From Methylotenera oryzisoli (lineage in GTDB: Bacteria; Pseudomonadota; Gammaproteobacteria; Burkholderiales; Methylophilaceae), in NCBI RefSeq assembly GCF_004661485.1, contig NZ_PQVH01000008.1:124001-188000 (forward strand): a stretch of DNA of 64,000 nt, read 5' to 3'. The translations under genes were made by a program, and so were the position numbers. Shown in pieces: positions 5,523-30,471 of this stretch (position 1 is the first letter of the stretch; each line of letters begins with the position of its first letter). The notes under the pieces were generated by a model. It had not been told where the DNA came from and did no database searches. It saw only the letters and a program-made list of their open reading frames with translations.

Positions 5523-5998
5523 TGGATAATAACTTCAAGCGGCGTTTGCAGTACTTCATTATCGTTAGCGAATAACTGCCAGCCAGTAGGGCCGGTGATG
5601 TCGAGTAATTTAGGCTCTTCTGCATGGCGAGAGACTAGCTTCCCTTGCTCTAAGGTAACAATAACAGCCTCTGTGAGCGCAAGTGTGATGCTGATATCTG
5701 TGTTTTTATGGTTGATTATTTCTGCCTCAAAACTCATGCCACTATCTGGCTTGCCAGTGAGTAAGCTTGGCTGATGCTCTCTCACCCAAACCAATAGCGG
5801 GATAAAGATATTGTCTGAGTGGGCGCTGTAGTCTGTAATGATGACATTCAGCGTGTAGTGGTACTCAAAGCTAAAGGTCGGTGCTTGTGTGCTGACGATT
5901 TGACCTTTATCGATAAAAACCAGCACTCGCTCTGGGTTCTTTTTCAACTCTGGGAGGGCTGCTTCTAACGCAGTACGCAAGCTGCTTGGTTTATTCAT
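5519..5998 (-). CDS. R: Tail completion protein R
   Basis: The product has 159 residues, like P2 gpR (155). I start at the ATG at 5998 rather than an upstream in-frame ATG at 6055. The protein then begins MNKPSSLRTALEAALPELKKNPERVLVFIDKG, matching the conserved 'MxKPxSLRxALtxavpxLkxNPdxlxxFidxG' start. The longer frame would only add residues overlapping Rz1. The W-rich middle (IPLLVWVREHQPSLL) is typical. It overlaps S by 4 bp and the Rz1 stop by 8 bp. Confidence 0.9.
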   Translation of the reverse strand: MNKPSSLRTALEAALPELKKNPERVLVFIDKGQIVSTQAPTFSFEYHYTLNVIITDYSAHSDNIFIPLLVWVREHQPSLLTGKPDSGMSFEAEIINHKNTDISITLALTEAVIVTLEQGKLVSRHAEEPKLLDITGPTGWQLFANDNEVLQTPLEVIIQ

Positions 5999-10476: not shown

Positions 10477-11292
10477 TTAGCAGTCGGTTGCGACTGTGCC
10501 ATCGCCACCTGTTGCCGGTTTACGGCTGTGTTGGTTATTAGGCTGACTGTCCATTTGCGCCTTAAACTCTGTAAACGCTTTACGGTCTGCTGCGCTTTCT
10601 TCAGTCAGCTTTTTGATTGATGTATTGAGTGAGTCAATCGTGGATTGCTGTGTGGCGAATTGATCTAGTGTTGACTTTTGACTGATGGCAATTTCTTCTA
10701 CTGCTTTGCTTACGCCAGTGAAGTTTTCAGTGTCGCTAGCAGTTTTCTTTGTCAGCAGGTCTTTTACTTTGTTGAATAATTGAGCACCCAAGCCTTCTGT
10801 GGTTTGTTCAATTTCAAGTTCAATGACGGTTTCTTCCGCTACAGTGAAAATGTTCTCTGTTTGTTGCTTGCGACTAGAGAATAGTTTTAATGCTTCTGTG
10901 CCAAGTGAAGATGGGCTATCAGTTACCCCTAGGCCGAATAGGTAAGCTTCGCCTGATTTAGCAAAATTTGGCTGAATTTCAATTGATGTGTAAATCTTCT
11001 GACGTTTTTTGTTGAACTCTACCAACTCTTCAGTGACGTCTAATTTCACAAATAAAGCTAGTTTCTTTTCACCGGCGATCTCTACTTCTTCTGATTTAGC
11101 TTCAATCACATCGCCAAGCGCTTTAAATTGGCTGTCTGGCAAAATGCCGCGAATATGCTCAAGCCAAATGCGTGCACCATATTTATCGCGGTTGTAGTTT
11201 TTGCCCATTTGCTCGATATCGCTACGGGATATTTCGCGGTTATCTGCTGTGGCACCTTCCACGGCAACTCGGAAAAATTTGGTTAATGGCAT
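10477..11292 (-). CDS. O: Capsid scaffolding protein O with maturation protease
   Basis: The product has 271 residues, like P2 gpO (284). The N-terminal half is a serine protease. By comparison with the P2 triad, Asp17 (ATADNREI), His46 (WLEHIRG) and Ser103 (YTSIEIQPNF) are the likely catalytic residues. The C-terminal half (from about 150) is helical and charged, the scaffold part. It is read divergently from P; the O-P gap holds the late-promoter dyad. Confidence 0.93.
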   Translation of the reverse strand: MPLTKFFRVAVEGATADNREISRSDIEQMGKNYNRDKYGARIWLEHIRGILPDSQFKALGDVIEAKSEEVEIAGEKKLALFVKLDVTEELVEFNKKRQKIYTSIEIQPNFAKSGEAYLFGLGVTDSPSSLGTEALKLFSSRKQQTENIFTVAEETVIELEIEQTTEGLGAQLFNKVKDLLTKKTASDTENFTGVSKAVEEIAISQKSTLDQFATQQSTIDSLNTSIKKLTEESAADRKAFTEFKAQMDSQPNNQHSRKPATGGDGTVATDC

Positions 11293-11447: not shown

Positions 11448-13223
11448 ATGAATGCCGTTGCAGAATTTAATCAAAAAATAGCTGAGGACTTAGACCCTAG
11501 AAAACAGGCGCGTCTTTTGTATTGGAGTGGGTACCGTGTGGCACGGATTGCTGAGTTAATTGGCGAGAAAAAGGCCACGATTCACAGTTGGAAGCGCCGT
11601 GATAAATGGGATGAGACAGAGCCGACTGATAGGGTGGAGGCTACGATTGAGAGCCGATTGAATAAGTTGGTGCTCAAGGATAAAAAAGAGCCGATAGACT
11701 TTAAAGAGATTGATTTGCTTGGGCGCCAAATGGAGCGCATGAGCAGGGTGCGTAAGCACGACAAAACAGGCAACGAGGCTGACCTAAATCCGAAAGTGGC
11801 TAACCGTAACAGTGGGCCACGCCGCAAGCCTGAAAAGAACGCGATTAGCGAAGATCAGCAAGCTAAGATGCTGACCGCGTTTAAAGAGTCTTTGTTTGAT
11901 TACCAGCGCACCTGGTACCGAGCTGGTATGAAGCACCGGATGCGCAACTTGCTAAAGAGCCGCCAGATTGGTGCTACTTGGTTCTTTGCCCGGGAGGCTT
12001 TGTGTGATGCGCTTGAAACTGGGCGTAATCAGATTTTTCTATCCGCAAGTAAGGCTCAGGCGCATGTGTTCAAGGGTTACATTAAGCAGTTTGCCGCTGA
12101 GAGTGCTGATGTTGAGCTGACTGGTGAGTCTATTGTTTTACCGAATGCGGCTGAGCTGTATTTTTTAGGTACCAATTCTAAGACTGCACAAAGTTACCAC
12201 GGCAATTTGTATGTTGATGAGTATTTCTGGATCAATAAATTTCAGGAGCTGCGCAAGGTTGCCTCTGGCATGGCTGCACATAAGCATTGGCGCCAAACGT
12301 ATTTTAGTACGCCATCAAGCTTGGCGCATGATGCATATCCATTTTGGAGTGGGGCGCTGTTTAACAAAGGTCGCACTAAGGATCAGAAGGTTGAGTTTGA
12401 TGTTGCGCACCATGTGCTTAAAAATGGTGTGCTTTGCCCTGATGGCCAGTGGCGCCATATTGTTACGATTGATGATGCGCTGGCTGGCGGCTGTGATTTG
12501 TTTGATCTGCAGCAGCTGCTACTTGAGTATGGGCCTGAAGAGTTCCAAAACTTATTTAGATGCCAGTTTATTGATGATGCGGCTTCTGTGTTTCCACTTT
12601 CAGAGATGCAGGATTGCATGGTGGATAGCTGGACGGTTTGGGATGACTACAAACCATTTGCGCTGCGTCCTCTTGGGTTCCGCGAGGTGTGGGTTGGTTA
12701 TGACCCTGCATTAAGCGGTGACTCTTCTGCGTTGGTGGTGTTGGCACCACCTTTAGTGGCTGGCGGTAAGTTTAGGATGATTGAGCGTCACCAGTTCAAA
12801 GGGATGGACTTTGCCGCACAGGCTGAGGCGATCAGAAAAGTGACTACGCGTTATAACGTGACTTACATAGGCATTGACGTTACCGGCTTAGGTCATGGTG
12901 TTCATCAGATTGTTAAGACGTTTTTTCCAAATGTACATTCGTTCTCATATAGCCCAGAGATAAAAATGCGCCTGGTGCTTAAAGCTAAGGACGTGATTAG
13001 CAACCGAAGATTAGAGTTTGATGCAGGATGGACTGATGTTTCAGCTTCATTTATGGCAATTAAGAAAACGACCACACCAAGTGGTACCCAGATAACTTTT
13101 AAAGCAGGGCGCTCTACAGAAACCAGCCATGCAGATATTGCTTGGGCAACCATGCACGCTATGGCAAACGAGCCGCTAGAGGGTTCAATCGACACTAACA
13201 ATTCAATGATGGAGATTTACTAA
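11448..13223 (+). CDS. P: Terminase large subunit P (ATPase)
   Basis: The product has 591 residues, like P2 gpP (590), the packaging motor that cuts and translocates DNA with gpM. The N-terminus has an HTH-like segment (ARLLYWSGYRVARIAELIG). The ATPase Walker-like motif is at SRQIGATWFFAREA. The C-terminal nuclease part has VGYDPALSGDSSALVVL, YIGIDVTGLGHGVHQ and TSHADIAWATMHAM. It is transcribed divergently from O, as in P2, and overlaps Q by 1 bp (TAATG). Confidence 0.95.
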   Translation: MNAVAEFNQKIAEDLDPRKQARLLYWSGYRVARIAELIGEKKATIHSWKRRDKWDETEPTDRVEATIESRLNKLVLKDKKEPIDFKEIDLLGRQMERMSRVRKHDKTGNEADLNPKVANRNSGPRRKPEKNAISEDQQAKMLTAFKESLFDYQRTWYRAGMKHRMRNLLKSRQIGATWFFAREALCDALETGRNQIFLSASKAQAHVFKGYIKQFAAESADVELTGESIVLPNAAELYFLGTNSKTAQSYHGNLYVDEYFWINKFQELRKVASGMAAHKHWRQTYFSTPSSLAHDAYPFWSGALFNKGRTKDQKVEFDVAHHVLKNGVLCPDGQWRHIVTIDDALAGGCDLFDLQQLLLEYGPEEFQNLFRCQFIDDAASVFPLSEMQDCMVDSWTVWDDYKPFALRPLGFREVWVGYDPALSGDSSALVVLAPPLVAGGKFRMIERHQFKGMDFAAQAEAIRKVTTRYNVTYIGIDVTGLGHGVHQIVKTFFPNVHSFSYSPEIKMRLVLKAKDVISNRRLEFDAGWTDVSASFMAIKKTTTPSGTQITFKAGRSTETSHADIAWATMHAMANEPLEGSIDTNNSMMEIY

Positions 13224-14248
13224 TGAAAAAGTCAGCAGGTAAACAATTAACCGTAGCGGAAGATGCGAAAGCTGAGGTGTTTTCTTTTGGTGATCCCATT
13301 GCTATGTTAGATAAAAGCGAGATATTTGATTATCTGGAGTGCATGCCAGTTGGTAAGTATTACGAGCCACCAATCTCGTTTGCTGGGTTGGCTAAAGCGT
13401 TTAGATCTTCTGTGCATCATAGCAGTGCCATTTACGTTAAACGTAATATCTTAGTGAGCTGCTATATTCCGCACCCCTTATTAAGCCGTGCTGAGTTTTC
13501 TAAGTGGGCATTAGATTACCTAGTCTTTGGCAATGGTTGCCTTGAGGCTAAAAAGGCAATGTCAGGCAAGGTACTATCACTTCAGAGTGCGCTAGCTAAG
13601 TACACACGCCGTGGGATAGATGTAGATCAGTATTACTATGTGACCGGCTACAAACAAGAGCATGAGTTTGCTAAGGGTTCAATCTTTCATTTGATTGAGC
13701 CAGACCTTAACCAAGAGTTGTATGGACTGCCAGAGTATTTGCCTGCGCTAAACTCTGCGTTATTAAATGAGGATGCAACGCTATTTCGCCGGCGCTATTA
13801 TAAAAATGGTAGCCATGCTGGTTTTATTCTATACATGACAGATGCAGCTCAAAAGCAGGATGATGTGGATAGCTTAAGAACTGCGCTGAAAAACTCTAAA
13901 GGCCCGGGCAACTTCCGCAACCTGTTTATGTATGCGCCCAATGGTAAGAAGGATGGCATACAGTTAATACCTGTCTCTGAGGTAGCTGCTAAGGATGAGT
14001 TCTTTAACATCAAGAACGTAACGCGTGATGATCAGCTGGCAGCGCATCGGGTACCACCACAGTTGATGGGTATCATTCCTACCAATACTGGCGGCTTTGG
14101 TAACCCAGCAGATACAGCAGAAGTATTCTCACGTAATGAGTTGGCGCCTTTGCAAGCAAGGTTTATGGAACTGAATGACTGGCTTGGTATGGAAGTAGTA
14201 AAGTTCAACAACTATAAAATTGACTCATCAGGTGACCAGCCGAAGTAG
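13223..14248 (+). CDS. Q: Portal protein Q
   Basis: The product has 341 residues, like P2 gpQ (344), the dodecameric portal at the head vertex. Motifs are VFSFGDPIAMLDKSEIFDYLEC and YYEPPISFAGLAKAFRSSVHH. The middle has LIEPDLNQELYGLPEYLPALNSALLNEDATLFRRRYYKNGSHAGFI, which is almost diagnostic. The C-terminus has HRVPPQLMGIIPTNTGGFG. It is the last gene before the cos/att region, with a terminator 32 bp downstream. Confidence 0.95.
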   Translation: MKKSAGKQLTVAEDAKAEVFSFGDPIAMLDKSEIFDYLECMPVGKYYEPPISFAGLAKAFRSSVHHSSAIYVKRNILVSCYIPHPLLSRAEFSKWALDYLVFGNGCLEAKKAMSGKVLSLQSALAKYTRRGIDVDQYYYVTGYKQEHEFAKGSIFHLIEPDLNQELYGLPEYLPALNSALLNEDATLFRRRYYKNGSHAGFILYMTDAAQKQDDVDSLRTALKNSKGPGNFRNLFMYAPNGKKDGIQLIPVSEVAAKDEFFNIKNVTRDDQLAAHRVPPQLMGIIPTNTGGFGNPADTAEVFSRNELAPLQARFMELNDWLGMEVVKFNNYKIDSSGDQPK

Positions 14249-14279: not shown

Positions 14280-14300
14280 CCGCCACTCGGCGGTTTTTTT
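14280..14300 (+). terminator. Rho-independent terminator after Q
   Basis: CCGCC (14280-14284), loop ACTC, GGCGG (14289-14293), then seven T. It ends the P-Q transcript just before cos. In P2 a similar hairpin lies between cos and Q. Confidence 0.88.
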
Positions 14301-14351
14301 ACGCCTATCAAATATTTAATAAAAAACCTCTATTCTGACCCAGCGCGCGCG

Positions 14352-14370
14352 CTCGTGACCCCGCCACGCC
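14352..14370 (-). other. Putative phage cos site
   Basis: The minus strand reads GGCGTGGCGGGGTCACGAG. From memory the P2 cohesive end is GGCGAGGCGGGGAAAGCAC and that of 186 GGCGTGGCGGGGAAAGCAT. The first 12 bases match 186 exactly and P2 at 11 of 12. Read toward Q it is followed by a GCGCGC-rich stretch ending GCGCTG and then the terminator, the same order as at the left end of P2. This would make 14370 about the left end of the packaged genome. The exact nick positions and overhang length are not known. Confidence 0.75.
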
Positions 14371-14401
14371 CGCACACTTCATACCCATAAAATTATGCGC
14401 G

Positions 14402-14498
14402 TGCATAAACTTGCTGAATGGCGCGGCCAGTGGCGGGGGATAGGTGTGACGCATGCAAATAGTTTATGCAAACACTTGCACCAGCTGCATGCATAAAC
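14402..14498. repeat. TGCATAAAC repeats beside cos
   Basis: TGCATAAAC occurs at 14402-14410 and 14490-14498 on the plus strand and at 14462-14470 on the minus strand: three copies in under 100 bp, next to cos. A 9-bp inverted repeat (CCCCGCCAC 14359-14367, GTGGCGGGG 14430-14438) links the cos core with the same stretch. Terminase (gpM) or integrase binding sites are possible; neither is shown. Confidence 0.6.
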
Positions 14499-14537
14499 GA
14501 ATTAATGTGCATTTTTGTGAAATTTAAAATTGATGAA

Positions 14538-14826
14538 CGGAAAAAGGTAATATTGGTAATGAATACATTTTAAACAGCTTAACCTATTGATGTGTATAGA
14601 TATTTTAAATTACCTTAAAAGGTAATATTAGGTAATACAAAAGGTAATATTTTTATATGTATTTGATTTTAAACAAATAAAAATATTCAAATTATTACAA
14701 ATTAAAAGGTAATGTGATTACCAATATATTACTTAAATATTACCTTTCCTTAATCATCCGAATACCGCATGAATAAACGATTACAGCGATATTTTAAAAA
14801 AATATTACCAATATTACCTTTTTCCG
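14538..14826. repeat. GGTAAT/ATTACC array framed by a perfect 23-bp inverted repeat
   Basis: The hexamer GGTAAT occurs at 14546, 14555, 14621, 14631, 14643 and 14708. Its complement ATTACC occurs at 14609, 14717, 14739, 14804 and 14813. That is eleven copies in 273 bp of AT-rich, noncoding DNA. The outermost pairs sit in a perfect 23-bp inverted repeat (14538-14560 and 14804-14826), which contains two hexamers 9 bp apart. Several inner copies have an AAAA leader. It lies between cos and attR. I see no ORF, transposase or clear target duplication. A protein-binding array (integrase/excisionase complex, origin or partition site) is the likely class. Confidence 0.7.
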
Positions 14827-14944
14827 ATGGGGTCAACTATTTTAAAAATATGATTTGAGCTTACTTTTGTTTGCCTGTAAAATGCGTGCCTGTAGTGGAA
14901 GTACATCAGATGTATGCAAGTGCGGTATTTGCATATATTAAAGA

Positions 14945-14965
14945 TGGGGCAAAATTGGGGCAAAA
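14945..14965 (+). repeat. Tandem TGGGGCAAAA near attR
   Basis: TGGGGCAAAA occurs at 14945-14954 and again at 14956-14965, an 11-bp period (one helical turn). It lies 80-100 bp from the tRNA fragment. Short repeats at this distance from a core are typical of arm-type integrase sites. This is an inference from position only. Confidence 0.45.
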
Positions 14966-15044
14966 CCATGTCTATCTATGTTTAACCATGATTAGTTAAA
15001 CGCATGATTTGATTAGGTATGTTGACTTATGATTACATAATTCA

Positions 15045-15072
15045 GTAAGTTCGAATCTCACCTCTTCCGCCA
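15045..15072 (+). other. attR: truncated 3' end of a tRNA-Ser gene
   Basis: The sequence holds a T-arm (GTAAG-TTCGAAT-CTCAC), the 3' acceptor strand CTCTTCC, discriminator G and encoded CCA. Nothing upstream resembles the rest of a tRNA. Acceptor GGAAGAG/CTCTTCC with G73 points to tRNA-Ser. The third T-stem pair is mismatched (A47 against C59 of the 150xx block, i.e. 15047/15059), as if the left bases came from the phage. A host rho-independent terminator follows at once. The intact gene and attL should lie beyond the left edge of the window. Confidence 0.82.
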
Positions 15073-15080
15073 AGAATTTT

Positions 15081-15117
15081 AAGCCGCTTAACTTTACAAT
15101 TAAGCGGCTTTGTTTTT
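15081..15117 (+). terminator. Terminator downstream of the tRNA-Ser 3' end
   Basis: AAGCCGCTTAA (15081-15091) pairs perfectly with TTAAGCGGCTT (15100-15110), followed by TGTTTTTT. This is the native terminator of the disrupted tRNA locus, now separated from the intact tRNA by the prophage. Confidence 0.88.
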
Positions 15118-15155
15118 TAACGTTAGTATCATCAAACATTACCCTAGGAATTAAC

Positions 15156-15802: not shown

Positions 15803-18421
15803 TTAAATTTCATCAAGCAAAGCCATTTGCAGTGCATGCACGCGGTTAAAATCAAGGCGCTCTCCGTTTTGGTCTGAGATTAAAAACGTATCCTCAGCGC
15901 GATTGCCTAGGGTGTTGATTTTTGCATTATGTAGTTTGATGCCGTATTTCAAAAATTGTTGTGCTAGCGTGGCGAGTAGGCCAGGTCTGTCATTAGCAAT
16001 AATCTCCAGCCGGTGATTGTTATTCTCGGCCTCTTTGGTGATGGTAATCTGTGCTTGAATCGGCATATGCTTCACTTGGCGACTTACTCTACCTTTAAGT
16101 GGAGACTCTAGCTGATATAGGTCATCAAGTTGATTGGCTAGCTCTAACTCAATAAACTTCAGTAAGCCGCTGTAGCTTACAGACTTGCCAGACTGGTCCA
16201 GAATAATAAAACTATTTAAGGCGTAATCATGTTGAGTAGTAAAGATTTTTGCTTCGACAATGCCATAACCCATACGGTCAAAGAAGTTACAGATTCTCGC
16301 AAATAAGTCGCTCTTGTCTTTAATGTAAATCATCACCTGAATACCATCGCCATGCGGGCTAAGCCTTGCGCGGACGATAGGTGTTTCGCTATAAAGGTGT
16401 GGCGTTAGCAAGCGGCTATGCCAGGCAATTTCGTCGCTCTCATGGCGGACAAAATAGTGCTCCCCAAACTGTATCCAGAGTGGCTCGTAGGCATGATTGC
16501 TTAAGCCAAACCTGCTCAGTTTATCTGATGCTTCTTTAATGCGTCGCTGTATGGTTTGTTTAGCGTGGAAGCCCGGGTCTGACAGAGCGTGATTGGTGGC
16601 AGAGTATAGGCTCTCTAGCAATCTAGCTTTCCAGGCGTTCCATACCACAGGGCTGGTGCCGCGAATGTCAGCAACAGTAAGTAAGTATAATGCGTTTAAT
16701 CTACGTTTATTTTCAACAAAACCCGCAAATGACTCAATCACACTAGGGTCAGATAAGTCGGTTTTTTGTGCGACGGATGACATTTTTAAGTGCGCTTCTA
16801 CTAGCCATGACACTAACGCACAGTCAGCTTTAGGTAAGTGATGTAACTTGCAAAATTTAAATGCATCAACTGTGCCTAATGTGGAGTGATCGCCACCGCG
16901 GCCTTTGGCAATATCGTGAAATAATGCGGCCATATACAGTAAATGCGGTGCATCAAACGCTGCAAAAATCTGGCTACACAATGGAAACTCATGTTTGAGC
17001 TCAGGCTTAGCGAAGCGTCGTAAATTCGCCAACACATTCAAAATATGTTCATCAACCGTATATACGTGAAATAAATCATGCTGCATTTGACCAACAATTT
17101 TGCCAAAAGCTGGAATATAGCTACCAAGTATCCCGTATCGATTCATTGCACGTAGCGCGCGATTAACGCCGCTAGGTTGCGACAGAATATCTATAAAAGT
17201 TTTTTTATTGCTGGCATTGTGCCTAAAGTCTTTATTGACTAATGGCTTTACGCGCTGCAACGTGCGCAGCAGCGTGGCGCCCATACCTGATAACTCAGGA
17301 TGCTGCTGTAACAGCAAAAATGCTTCAAAAATTGCAGATGGATTTTGCTGTAGCAGGTTTGCAGTTCTGGCTTCCAGCAAATCATTGCGTGCTTCAAATT
17401 TATCGTTGATGACACGAATTGCTGGCGGTGTCGCTACAATAGTCTCTTCTAGCAGCTTAAGCACAATTTCGTTCATAAGCTCAATAAATTTAACGCTACG
17501 GTAGTAGCTTTGCATAAGCTGCTCACTCGCGCGTCTGCGTGGGGTGTTGCTGTAACCTAATGTCGCTGCGAGATCGTTCTGAAAGTCAAATAACAATCGG
17601 TCTTCGCGCCGCCCGCTTAAAAAATGCAAGTGCGTGCGAAGTAACTGTAGTTTTTTTTCGTGGTGACGAATGCGGCGTGATTCAGTCACGGAGATAATTT
17701 GATCTTTTGCCAATGCAGCCCAAGGATTGCCGGCTGAGTATTGCTTGTTTTTAACCTGCAAGCTACGCGCTATCCAAATAATCATATGCAAATCACGCAG
17801 CCCACCTGGGCTTTCTTTGAGATTTGGTTCTAGGTTGTAAGCGGTGTCGTTAAATTTTGAGTGGCGCAGGTCCTGCTCTGTTAATTTGGCTTTTAAAAAA
17901 TCAATTGGGCTTAGATTCTTGGAAATGTTTGCCAGAAAGTCTTGATATATAGTGGCATTGCCAGATAGCAGGCGCGACTCTAGTACATTAGTTTGCACGG
18001 TGATATCTTTTTGCGCCTCACTGATGCATTCATCCAAGTTGCGTACGCTGTGACCGATATTCAGCCCCAAATCCCACATCAATCCGATTAGGTTTTCAAT
18101 GCTTTGATTTAGCGCGCTATTTTCTTGAGGTTTGTTTGGTATTAAAACCAGCAGGTCAATGTCAGAGTAGGGGAATAACTCACCGCGACCATAACCGCCA
18201 ACAGCAATCAGGCAGCAAGCTGGATCAATTTGTAAATCTGACCATAACTCCACGAGGAGTTGGTCAATAAACTTACAATGCTGTTTAAACAGACGGGTGG
18301 TGTTAGGTTGGCGGTTAAAGTCTTCTTTTAATGCTAAGAATTGCTTTTTTAAGGAGGTACGTAAAAAAGCAATTCTTTCTTTTGAAATTTCGATGGATTC
18401 TATATTGTTATCTAATTGCAT
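15803..18421 (-). CDS. glnD: Bifunctional PII uridylyltransferase / uridylyl-removing enzyme
   Basis: The product has 872 residues, normal for GlnD. It senses glutamine and adds or removes UMP on PII proteins, steering glutamine synthetase and nitrogen genes. Residues 75-90 carry the nucleotidyltransferase motif GGYGRGELFPYSDIDL (Asp87, Asp89). An HD domain at about 440-560 has VDEHILNVL and LFHDIAKGRGGDHS for removal. Two ACT domains lie at about 680-760 (RARLSPHGDGIQVMIYIKD) and 800-872 (LEIIANDRPGLLATL). It follows map by 31 bp, so the two are probably co-transcribed. Confidence 0.96.
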   Translation of the reverse strand: MQLDNNIESIEISKERIAFLRTSLKKQFLALKEDFNRQPNTTRLFKQHCKFIDQLLVELWSDLQIDPACCLIAVGGYGRGELFPYSDIDLLVLIPNKPQENSALNQSIENLIGLMWDLGLNIGHSVRNLDECISEAQKDITVQTNVLESRLLSGNATIYQDFLANISKNLSPIDFLKAKLTEQDLRHSKFNDTAYNLEPNLKESPGGLRDLHMIIWIARSLQVKNKQYSAGNPWAALAKDQIISVTESRRIRHHEKKLQLLRTHLHFLSGRREDRLLFDFQNDLAATLGYSNTPRRRASEQLMQSYYRSVKFIELMNEIVLKLLEETIVATPPAIRVINDKFEARNDLLEARTANLLQQNPSAIFEAFLLLQQHPELSGMGATLLRTLQRVKPLVNKDFRHNASNKKTFIDILSQPSGVNRALRAMNRYGILGSYIPAFGKIVGQMQHDLFHVYTVDEHILNVLANLRRFAKPELKHEFPLCSQIFAAFDAPHLLYMAALFHDIAKGRGGDHSTLGTVDAFKFCKLHHLPKADCALVSWLVEAHLKMSSVAQKTDLSDPSVIESFAGFVENKRRLNALYLLTVADIRGTSPVVWNAWKARLLESLYSATNHALSDPGFHAKQTIQRRIKEASDKLSRFGLSNHAYEPLWIQFGEHYFVRHESDEIAWHSRLLTPHLYSETPIVRARLSPHGDGIQVMIYIKDKSDLFARICNFFDRMGYGIVEAKIFTTQHDYALNSFIILDQSGKSVSYSGLLKFIELELANQLDDLYQLESPLKGRVSRQVKHMPIQAQITITKEAENNNHRLEIIANDRPGLLATLAQQFLKYGIKLHNAKINTLGNRAEDTFLISDQNGERLDFNRVHALQMALLDEI

Positions 18422-28146: not shown

Positions 28147-30471
28147 ATGGCAATTCAAAATTTGAAACACCCTAAATTAAAACTAAAATCTATGTTATTG
28201 CTTGTCTCTAGCTTGTATGCTGGTTCAGTGATGGCACTTGAACCATTTCAAGTTAAAGATATTCGGGTAGAAGGTATTCAGAGGACAGAAGCAGGCACTG
28301 TGTTTAGCCACCTGCCTGTTAAAGTCGGTGAGATTATGGACGATGATCTTGCATCGCAAGCCATTAAGTCACTATATAGCACCGGTTTTTTCAAAGATGT
28401 ACGCATCGAAGCCGAAAATGATGTGCTAATTGTAACCGTGCAGGAACGCGCAGCCATTGCGCAAATTGAATTCAGCGGTAACAAGTCATTCCCAACAGAC
28501 AAAATGAAAGAGGGCTTAAAGCAAGTTGGTATTGCAGAGAGTCAAATTTTTGACAAGTCACAGTTAGACCGTGCAGAGCAGGAAATTAAGCGCCAATACT
28601 TATCACAAGGTAAATACGGCGCTACAGTAAAAACTGTGGTGACGCCTCTGGAGCGTAATCGCGTTGCTGTGCGCTTTGATATTGAAGAGGGGGCCGTTTC
28701 TAAGATTCGCGATATTAATATCGTTGGTAACAAGGCTTATACCATTGAAGATCTTCGAGCACAATTTTTGCTGACAACGCCTAACTGGATGAGTTGGTGG
28801 AATAAAGACGACCAATATTCCAAGCAAAAATTAAATGCTGACTTAGAAACCTTACGCTCGTTTTACATGAATCAGGGCTATCTTGAGTTTAATATTGATT
28901 CCACACAGGTTTCAATTACCCCTGACAAAAAAGACATCTACATCACTATTAATATTACCGAAGGCGAAAAGTATACGATTTCAGAGGTGAAGTTAGCCGG
29001 CGAAACCTTGGTGCCTGAAGATGAGTTGCGACAACTGATTCAAGTGCAGGCTGGTGATACCTTTAGCCGTGAGAAAGTCACGCAAACGAGCAAGGCGATT
29101 AGCGACCGACTAAGTAACGATGGGTATGCCTTCTCAAATGTGAACCCAGTGCCGGATATCAACAAAGAAAAGCATACCGCTGCGTTTACCTTTTTTGTTG
29201 ATCCTGGCAAACGTGTATATGTTAGACGCATCAATGTGGTAGGCAACACGCGTACGCGCGATGAGGTCATTCGACGTGAAGTGCGTCAACTAGAATCTGC
29301 CTGGTATGCATCTAATAAAATTAATCGTTCAAAAGAGCGTATTACGCGTACCGATTTTTTCTCTGACGTCAATGTAGAAACACCTGCAGTAGCTGGTACT
29401 GCCGATCAAGTTGATTTAAATATTAGTGTGACAGAGAAATCTACGGGTAGCGTACAGTTTGGTGCGGGTTTATCTAGTAACGAAGGTGTGGTGTTCGGTA
29501 TTACTGTCAACCAAAACAACTTCCTAGGTACGGGTAACCGTGTCAGCGCGCAAGTGAATACAGGTAAGGTTAATACGACTTACTCACTATCCTACACCGA
29601 TCCTTATTTCACCCCTGACGGTGTAAGTCGCGGTATCGACCTATATCGTCGCGATGTTAATACCAGTTCACTGAATATTGGTACCTACAACACCTCATCA
29701 TATGGTGGTGGCGTTAGATTCGGTATTCCATTAAATGAACGTGATGGCGTTAACTTTGGCCTTGCGGCTGACTTCACATCGGTAGATTTGACTTCTCAAA
29801 GCCCGCAACAATATAAAGACTTTTGCGAAAAGGCTAGTGGTTGTACCAGTAACTCTATAGTCGCGAGTGCAGGGTGGACGCATGACTCGAGAGATAGCAT
29901 CATGTTTACCACTAAAGGCGTATTACAAAGATTATCTGGAGAAGTTTCTATCCCAGTACTCGATTTAGAGTACTACAAAATAGACTATAAACATGCGTGG
30001 TTTAAAGAGTTATTTACTGGCTATACCTTGATGTTAAACGGGGAAATTGGATATGCTGACTCTTATGGCAATAAAAACTATCCATTCTTTAAAAACTTTT
30101 ATATGGGTGGCGTAAACTCTGTCAGAGGTTATACCAATGGTTCATTGGGACCGCGTGGTATCGACTCTACAACCGGTAACGACTTCGCTTTAGGTGGCAC
30201 AAAACGTATGTTGGGTAATGCTGAATTGTATATTCCAATCCCAGGTTTAAAAGACTCTAAACAATTCAGAATGAGTGCATTTGCGGATGCTGGTAATGTC
30301 TTTGGCGTGAATGATTCTTATGATTTTGGTGAGTTGCGTTATTCAACTGGTTTAGGTTTAAGCTGGATATCGCCGTTTGGTCCTTTAAAATTAGTATTTG
30401 CTAAGCCATTAAATAGTAAATCTGGTGATAATACGCAGACCATTCAGTTCCAGCTAGGTCAGCAGTTCTAG
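28147..30471 (+). CDS. bamA: Outer-membrane protein assembly factor BamA
   Basis: The product has 774 residues. A signal peptide ends near YAGSVMA (about residue 30). Five POTRA domains follow (about 35-430; each has a 'I..I.i.GN...t.' start such as VRRINVVGNTRTRDEVIRRE). The C-terminal 16-strand barrel ends in a terminal Phe (FQLGQQF). The lock motif VRGYTNGSLGPR contains the conserved VRGY. It folds and inserts beta-barrel proteins into the outer membrane. Confidence 0.97.
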   Translation: MAIQNLKHPKLKLKSMLLLVSSLYAGSVMALEPFQVKDIRVEGIQRTEAGTVFSHLPVKVGEIMDDDLASQAIKSLYSTGFFKDVRIEAENDVLIVTVQERAAIAQIEFSGNKSFPTDKMKEGLKQVGIAESQIFDKSQLDRAEQEIKRQYLSQGKYGATVKTVVTPLERNRVAVRFDIEEGAVSKIRDINIVGNKAYTIEDLRAQFLLTTPNWMSWWNKDDQYSKQKLNADLETLRSFYMNQGYLEFNIDSTQVSITPDKKDIYITINITEGEKYTISEVKLAGETLVPEDELRQLIQVQAGDTFSREKVTQTSKAISDRLSNDGYAFSNVNPVPDINKEKHTAAFTFFVDPGKRVYVRRINVVGNTRTRDEVIRREVRQLESAWYASNKINRSKERITRTDFFSDVNVETPAVAGTADQVDLNISVTEKSTGSVQFGAGLSSNEGVVFGITVNQNNFLGTGNRVSAQVNTGKVNTTYSLSYTDPYFTPDGVSRGIDLYRRDVNTSSLNIGTYNTSSYGGGVRFGIPLNERDGVNFGLAADFTSVDLTSQSPQQYKDFCEKASGCTSNSIVASAGWTHDSRDSIMFTTKGVLQRLSGEVSIPVLDLEYYKIDYKHAWFKELFTGYTLMLNGEIGYADSYGNKNYPFFKNFYMGGVNSVRGYTNGSLGPRGIDSTTGNDFALGGTKRMLGNAELYIPIPGLKDSKQFRMSAFADAGNVFGVNDSYDFGELRYSTGLGLSWISPFGPLKLVFAKPLNSKSGDNTQTIQFQLGQQF

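Follow-up and report, generated by a model that had tools for sequence, protein, structure and literature searches.

The window analyzed here is a 64,000-nucleotide stretch of the Methylotenera oryzisoli genome that holds part of a P2-like prophage. A gene for a P-type terminase ATPase subunit (positions 11448 to 13223, forward strand) is followed by a gene for a Q-type portal protein (13223 to 14248, forward strand), which was named by homology to annotated portals and is the nearest coding neighbor of the block under study. Outside that block lies a cos core, GGCGTGGCGGGG, at 14359 to 14370 on the reverse strand, which was compared with the P2 and Smp131 cos sequences as given in passages of the Smp131 paper (PMC3931495). 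On the other side is the attR core, AGTTCGAATCTCACCTCTTCCGCCA, at about 15048 to 15072 on the forward strand, a 25-bp copy of the 3' end of tRNA-Ser. ARAGORN found no tRNA in the window and placed the intact tRNA-Ser(TGA) at attL, the left prophage end (L251, 5576 to 5665). The 386-amino-acid integrase is also encoded at the left end, outside the window. Two copies of GGGGCAAAA, 11 bp apart, form an integrase arm-type pair at 14946 to 14965 (forward strand; copies at 14946 and 14957), and a partner pair of GGGGCAAA, likewise 11 bp apart, lies on the attL side (L251, 5712 to 5730; copies at 5712 and 5723). The role of these pairs is assigned by analogy with known arm sites, and they suggest that the integrase of this prophage has its own sites, apart from the GGTAAT array.

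That array occupies a 289-bp element, a putative replication origin, at 14538 to 14826 (forward strand), between cos and attR, where the earlier note had placed it. Eleven exact hexamers are present, six as GGTAAT (14546, 14555, 14621, 14631, 14643, and 14708; forward strand) and five as ATTACC (14609, 14717, 14739, 14804, and 14813; reverse strand). The ends are inverted-repeat arms of 23 nt each that are 100% complementary, the left at 14538 to 14560 (forward) and the right at 14804 to 14826 (reverse), and each carries two iterons 9 bp apart (14546 and 14555; 14804 and 14813). An inner-left cluster (14609 to 14648) comprises one reverse site at 14609 and forward sites at 14621, 14631, and 14643, and an inner-right cluster (14694 to 14744) comprises ATTACA at 14694 (reverse), 14708 (forward), 14717 (reverse), ATTACT at 14728 (reverse), and 14739 (reverse). 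The degenerate sites ATTACA (14694 to 14699) and ATTACT (14728 to 14733) fall at positions that the alignment shows to be conserved in the family, giving 13 site positions. The central spacer (14649 to 14707) is ~92% A+T and is a candidate melting region. By the IHF consensus, an IHF-like site, TAACCTATTGAT (YAANNNNTTGAT), lies at 14580 to 14591 on the reverse strand; most homologues have theirs around element positions 115 and 220 instead.

The site count, the complementarity of the arms, and shuffling confirmed the description of 11 hexamers with a perfect 23-bp inverted repeat. When the block was shuffled 5000 times with dinucleotides preserved, it held 0.49 hexamers on average and never more than 4, and the commonest 6-mer of any kind averaged 3.1, with a maximum of 8 per shuffle, in 500 block shuffles. 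The whole window holds 66 GGTAAT/ATTACC sites versus 31 expected. No open reading frame of at least 80 amino acids overlaps 14538 to 14826, a block that had been described as noncoding, and no Rfam match at gathering scores was found between window positions 11000 and 18000.

Conservation of the element in phages and bacterial genomes

A nucleotide profile search yielded 141 full-length elements, the window copy included (133 distinct; one genome, present as L005 and L223, is counted twice), of which 101 are exactly 290 bp long within a range of 286 to 299 bp. The window copy, which was among the sequences used to build the model, scored 142 bits in nhmmer over model positions 1 to 290. Homologues keep its site order and spacing. 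The earlier note had set conservation of the hexamers in related phages as a test, and the mean information is 1.75 bits per base in the 13 six-base site positions versus 0.69 outside them. Exact GGTAA is kept at 10.6 of the 13 sites on average across the 133 distinct copies, a motif biased to GGTAAT given that the loci were found through it; the search left overall length and most of the spacings free. Around positions 115 and 220, two IHF-like motifs are present in strict form in 78 of the 141 elements (5.6 expected from shuffles) and in relaxed form in 120 (9.4 expected). Further conserved bases, such as TGATTTTAAAGGGTTT, were seen in the spacers at element positions of about 41 to 65, 120 to 142, and 222 to 246, beyond the IHF-like sites, and may be the sites of a second protein or hairpins.

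An 18-mer of the terminal repeat matched 37 viral loci (26 with a full element, 2 with a partial one, and 9 without a profile match) and 77 loci in the genome collection, where elements were present in 16; the Psychrobacter matches L174 and L227 had no element. Three sites at fixed spacing, searched as a pattern, were found in at least 120 stretches. One hexamer-count match (L051) proved to be a repeat lacking the element and was removed from the model. With window positions 14300 to 15140 as the query, blastn returned no match in phages or plasmids; with a Pseudomonas homologue as the query, it returned 7 phage records and 3 weak plasmid records. A family-wide blastn search of 187 genomes (E<=10) gave mostly short A+T-rich matches, and, apart from the window itself, G075 alone gave a full-length match.

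The earlier note knew of no P2-like phage described with such an element, which does not hold for carriage, given that phiCTX, Sirocco, Dobby, and Smp131 all carry the array or element. The phiCTX copy (D13409), a direct homologue that lies between the attP core and cosR, scored 170 bits; the record annotates int, the attP core, and cosR and has nothing on the array. No published description of the array was found in the available portions of the phiCTX, GGTAAT, and Smp131 literature; older phiCTX papers fall outside that search, and an earlier description is possible. Two further contigs deserve mention. L033 (1 to 13446; IMGVR_UViG_2808606543_000001) is a 13.4-kb contig with a canonical element that also encodes a Mob_Pre relaxase, a P2-type major capsid protein, a 928-amino-acid primase-type open reading frame, and, judged by eye, an Ogr-like zinc finger; it is possibly a capsid-bearing satellite or mobilizable element. 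L238 has its element about 4 kb from a primase.

Association with a primase-helicase gene

The candidate initiator gene of the prophage lies outside the window (G000:C14:108515-111196), about 27 kb from the element and about 6 kb from it in the circular form, and its product is ~890 amino acids long. It belongs to phrog_1139, a family of ~890-amino-acid "DNA primase" proteins with Toprim and P-loop regions, and its helicase fold matches that of SaPIbov1 Rep, a Rep/Cch fold with a C-terminal domain. Record-wide family searches covered phrog_1139, the P2-type small terminase PF05944, and the Arm-DNA-bind_2 integrase in 52 element-bearing records, namely contigs of at least 32 kb among the matches listed plus four phages (L028 and the contigs behind L132 to L167 were left out, and L079 has a partial element only). 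phrog_1139 was present in 51 of the 52. The sole miss, L048/G197, is a cut contig in which TerS begins at 7.2 kb, and its relative G187 carries the gene 7.6 to 10.4 kb upstream of TerS. PF05944 was present in 52/52 and the integrase in only 25/52. Association alone cannot separate phrog_1139 from TerS, given that the small terminase is equally constant.

Among 16 element-bearing bacterial genomes, phrog_1139 was full length in 14, partial in 1 (G249), and absent in 1 metagenome-assembled genome; by coordinates, the gene lies 4 to 29 kb from the element in 12 of those 14. The gene is uncommon: of the 369 genomes searched in the class, 8 had it at E<=1e-100, one of them the window's own.

Arrays and altered sites at loci selected by the gene

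The converse search started from the gene. At twelve primase loci we looked for arrays in three ways, using the profile, a motif-agnostic score that asks for a 6-mer recurring at the element's spacing, and a k-mer count. The class search supplied six of these loci, and the other six were extra primase copies in genomes reached through the motif (G246, G241, G247, and G237); the latter six, like the four named phages reached through the element, are not independent of the motif. The same architecture was present at four loci, with altered sites at three of them (GTAATC in G474, AGTAAT in G237C31, and GGTTAG in G246C7; GGTAAT in G606). Three more had a different array no more than about 100 bp past the primase gene, built of GGGTGACA (G254), CCGGAACA (G237C59), or TGGAAGG (G247C47), and in each the end pairs are once more inverted and spaced 9 bp apart. 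No array was found at the other five (G412, G460, G511, G241C13, and G241C53), of which the G460 and G241C53 contigs are shorter than 18 kb. The start of one contig (L264 1 to 560; G511:C10) carries a dense tandem array of the GGGACAYAACG type, unlike the other arrays, about 20 kb from a phrog_1139 gene.

We also took 37 of 41 primase-selected contigs of at least 28 kb (L340, L342, L346, and L348 were left out, the last two lying in contigs already known to bear the element); the set was drawn from the best 80 of 533 primase matches and consists of close relatives of the window's gene. Eighteen match the canonical model at E<1e-6, one (G637) keeps the element's spacing with CCTAACC sites, and in two (G654 and G655) the gene is followed by a TGGAAGG array. 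No array was found in 16, of which 10 were read throughout in pieces and 6 in full with the canonical model only; 5 of those 10 end less than 1 kb from the portal match, and a window-type element would lie beyond the end. Weak paired signals in G643 and G648 were not counted.

All four named phages reached through the element (Dobby, OQ658368, Sirocco, and Halomonas phage 4908) carry the gene. Conversely, an array was present in six of eight phages reached through the gene, which were drawn from 21 gene-bearing records, duplicates included: Smp131 (AGGTAAC), ESSI2 (CATCACA), 2F_1 (GGTTAC/GTAACT), UFJF_PfPro (CTGTCAG), phi3 (CCGGAACA), and PaBSM (TGGAAGG). None was found in ZY1 or Mae-JY29. The gene content and order of the ZY1 record (L395; OR820920.1, "Bacillus phage vB_BpuM-ZY1") closely parallel those of Halomonas phage 4908, and a Bacillus host for this P2-like phage looks odd. 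Such an array was absent from all seven P2-like controls without the gene (P2, Fels-2, AP3, Momento, PHL101, Vibrio 1.202.O, and ENT90); PHL101 has eight GCAAGCA copies at 18297 and Momento seven GGGGCA copies at 29988, neither with the element's architecture.

Comparison across these records shows that the predicted sites of an array change together, and with the initiator, while the architecture stays on a common frame; nearly every array has its end pairs spaced 9 bp apart. The array lies directly 3' of the gene in phi3, PaBSM, G254, G237C59, and G247C47, and at 61 bp from it in L026.

Comparison of phi3 and PaBSM and alternative explanations

Phages phi3 and PaBSM have 19.5 kb in common, mostly late genes, at 98.9% DNA identity. 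Protein identity is 99.6% for TerL, 97.9% for the portal, 100% for the capsid, and 177/200 for TerS as annotated; it is 57% for the primase, 58% for the integrase, 58% for the repressor, and 85% for Cox. The iterons behind the primase gene are CCGGAACA in phi3 and TGGAAGG in PaBSM. Of the proteins compared, it is the primase whose presence follows the array from record to record and whose sequence diverges where the sites do. The repressor and the integrase diverge as well, but the sites that belong to them are elsewhere or did not appear in the array. An annotated reverse transcriptase gene adjoins int in phi3 (L401 1071 to 2756).

We considered that a small early regulator (Cox/excisionase, a repressor, or an Arc-like protein) could bind the sites, which would make the element an operator, an excision site, or an immunity site. 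The position of the array near attP in phiCTX and the window, together with the divergence of repressor and Cox between phi3 and PaBSM, would fit such a role. However, Cox is still 85% identical in that pair despite a site changed throughout, and both phages have the array directly behind the primase gene and not at att. Copies outside the array also miss the expected region: Sirocco has five exact GGTAAT outside it, none near its CI-cox region (26.6 to 27.3 kb), and the outside copies in PaBSM (4) and phi3 (10 CGGAACA) do not fall in the C-cox region. We regard a regulator as unlikely.

It is less likely still that the hexamers are cosB-like sites through which the terminase small subunit helps choose DNA for packaging. 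The distance from cos to the element is near constant, at about 167 to 188 bp, in six phages (the window's prophage, Sirocco, Dobby, Halomonas phage 4908, Smp131, and phiCTX), which may reflect shared descent or a link to packaging, and PF05944 is as constant a partner as noted above. Against this, the terminase is unlikely to set the site, given that TerL and the late block are so nearly identical in phi3 and PaBSM yet the sites differ; the sites are not conserved with the terminase. Moreover, the element lies about 19 to 21 kb from TerS in the Pseudomonas-type records G187 and G190, and P2-like controls lack the array.

Integrase arm-type sites on the P arm of attP were among the roles proposed in the earlier note, and the constant order and orientation of element, attP, and int in phiCTX, the window, and several relatives agree with them. 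Yet the separate GGGGCAAA pairs flank the core on both sides in this prophage, and phiCTX has GTTCCCA pairs on both sides of its core with no GGTAAT between int and the core; every GGTAAT hexamer in the 2.4-kb phiCTX record is inside the element. A lambda-type attP arm has one motif, bound by the Int N-domain, on both sides of the core, and GGTAAT does not show this pattern. ESSI2 carries, behind int, a separate array of GTCCACA, and PaBSM has GTCCAC pairs, both distinct from the iterons; the consulted sections of the Smp131 paper locate integrase repeats beside int and do not mention an array near cos (PMC3931495). The Arm-DNA-bind_2 integrase accompanies fewer than half of the element-bearing records, and the array is kilobases from int in phi3 and PaBSM. 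Arm sites are highly improbable, while two other parts of the proposal, an ordered array for cooperative binding and an origin among its possible roles, are supported.

Just as improbable is a partition site or a plasmid-type incompatibility locus without origin function. Symmetric dispersed sites do resemble some centromere-like loci, but the annotations of Sirocco and Halomonas phage 4908 list no ParA/ParB gene (phi3 has one annotated partition ATPase fragment), and the element pairs with a primase-helicase. A stand-alone MITE, which the earlier note had raised as a point to check and which would have several copies with target duplications, was rejected: the element is single copy in the host genome (G000), where two other matches are its own inverted-repeat arms, and its homologues occupy like, phage-specific places.

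Discussion

Collectively, our findings suggest, with a probability that we put at roughly 85%, that the 289-bp element serves the P2-like prophage as its theta-type replication origin and that its hexamers are iterons for the prophage's own primase-helicase initiator. The initiator would be a zinc/Toprim (DnaG-type) primase fused to a self-loading helicase of the SaPI-Rep/Cch type, ~890 amino acids in all, and the 11 to 13 GGTAAT sites would be its iterons. We hypothesize that its C-terminal domain binds the iterons, as reported for relatives, probably as two oligomers, one per inverted half. Two IHF-like bends and the symmetric ends could then fold the array and melt an A+T-rich spacer, after which the helicase would load in both orientations and the Toprim domain would prime both forks. 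Binding, melting, loading, and bidirectional firing are all predicted steps in this scheme.

Some observations count against an origin. No array was seen in 16/37 contigs, 5/12 loci, and 2/8 gene-selected phages, and the element lies far from the initiator gene in this prophage, unlike in SaPI. There was no turn in GC skew at the array in eight phages, the extremes falling 1.2 to 15 kb from the arrays, which we take as uninformative.

The origin reading provides a concrete candidate origin and initiator for the P2-like branch to which phiCTX, Smp131, and prophages of Pseudomonas and Betaproteobacteria belong, and a natural set of initiator-iteron pairs, spanning GGTAAT to CCGGAACA, in which to study how such a domain selects its site. 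As far as the literature was searched, three points are new: that complete P2-like phages carry the array, that the symmetric 290-bp module stands apart from its gene, and that one frame bears a series of site alphabets. A broader and, taken jointly, speculative proposal, which we hold to be doubtful, is that the Peduoviridae have a second replication class with a portable 290-bp origin, in which the iteron alphabet set by the initiator's C-terminal domain serves as a compatibility code, the cos distance couples firing to packaging in the phiCTX/window branch, and small capsid-bearing elements such as L033 took over the module.

P2 itself replicates from a rolling-circle origin within gene A, through nicking by the A protein. 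Carriers of the element have the virion and late-gene family in common with P2; in contrast, P2, Fels-2, PHL101, and ENT90 are without such an array, and the last three are annotated with A-type replication proteins. The satellite phage P4 has a primase-helicase initiator, alpha, and dispersed iterons at an origin away from the gene, with two iteron loci, ori and crr. The prophage resembles P4 in its putative primase-helicase initiator, its dispersed iterons, and its candidate origin away from the gene. One cluster was seen in the parts of the prophage scanned, the left part (L004) having 14 dispersed hexamers, at most 2 per 300 bp.

Comparison with the pri-rep-ori replicons of SaPI/PICI elements (SaPIbov1 Rep, EcCICFT073) draws on portions of two reports (PMC6092414, PMC7581432). 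Both systems pair iterons with a self-loading helicase bearing a C-terminal domain; here too the array is paired with its initiator, and different initiators go with different iterons, with the misses counted above. The origin lies directly 3' of the gene in phi3, PaBSM, G254, and others, as in SaPI/PICI; in the window it does not, and the window and phiCTX-type array is away from the gene, near att and/or cos. Unlike SaPI/PICI, the carriers here are full P2-like phages, and the origin is one symmetric ~290-bp unit with 11 to 13 sites and paired ends. The primase fused to the helicase here is of the DnaG/Toprim type, whereas those of SaPIbov1 and SaPI5 are of the AEP type in the sections of the report that treat them (PMC7581432). 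The window element would therefore work like a PICI replicon but is not filed as one; by analogy, its predicted mechanism is a variant of the SaPI/PICI rep-ori replicons and recalls that of P4 alpha.
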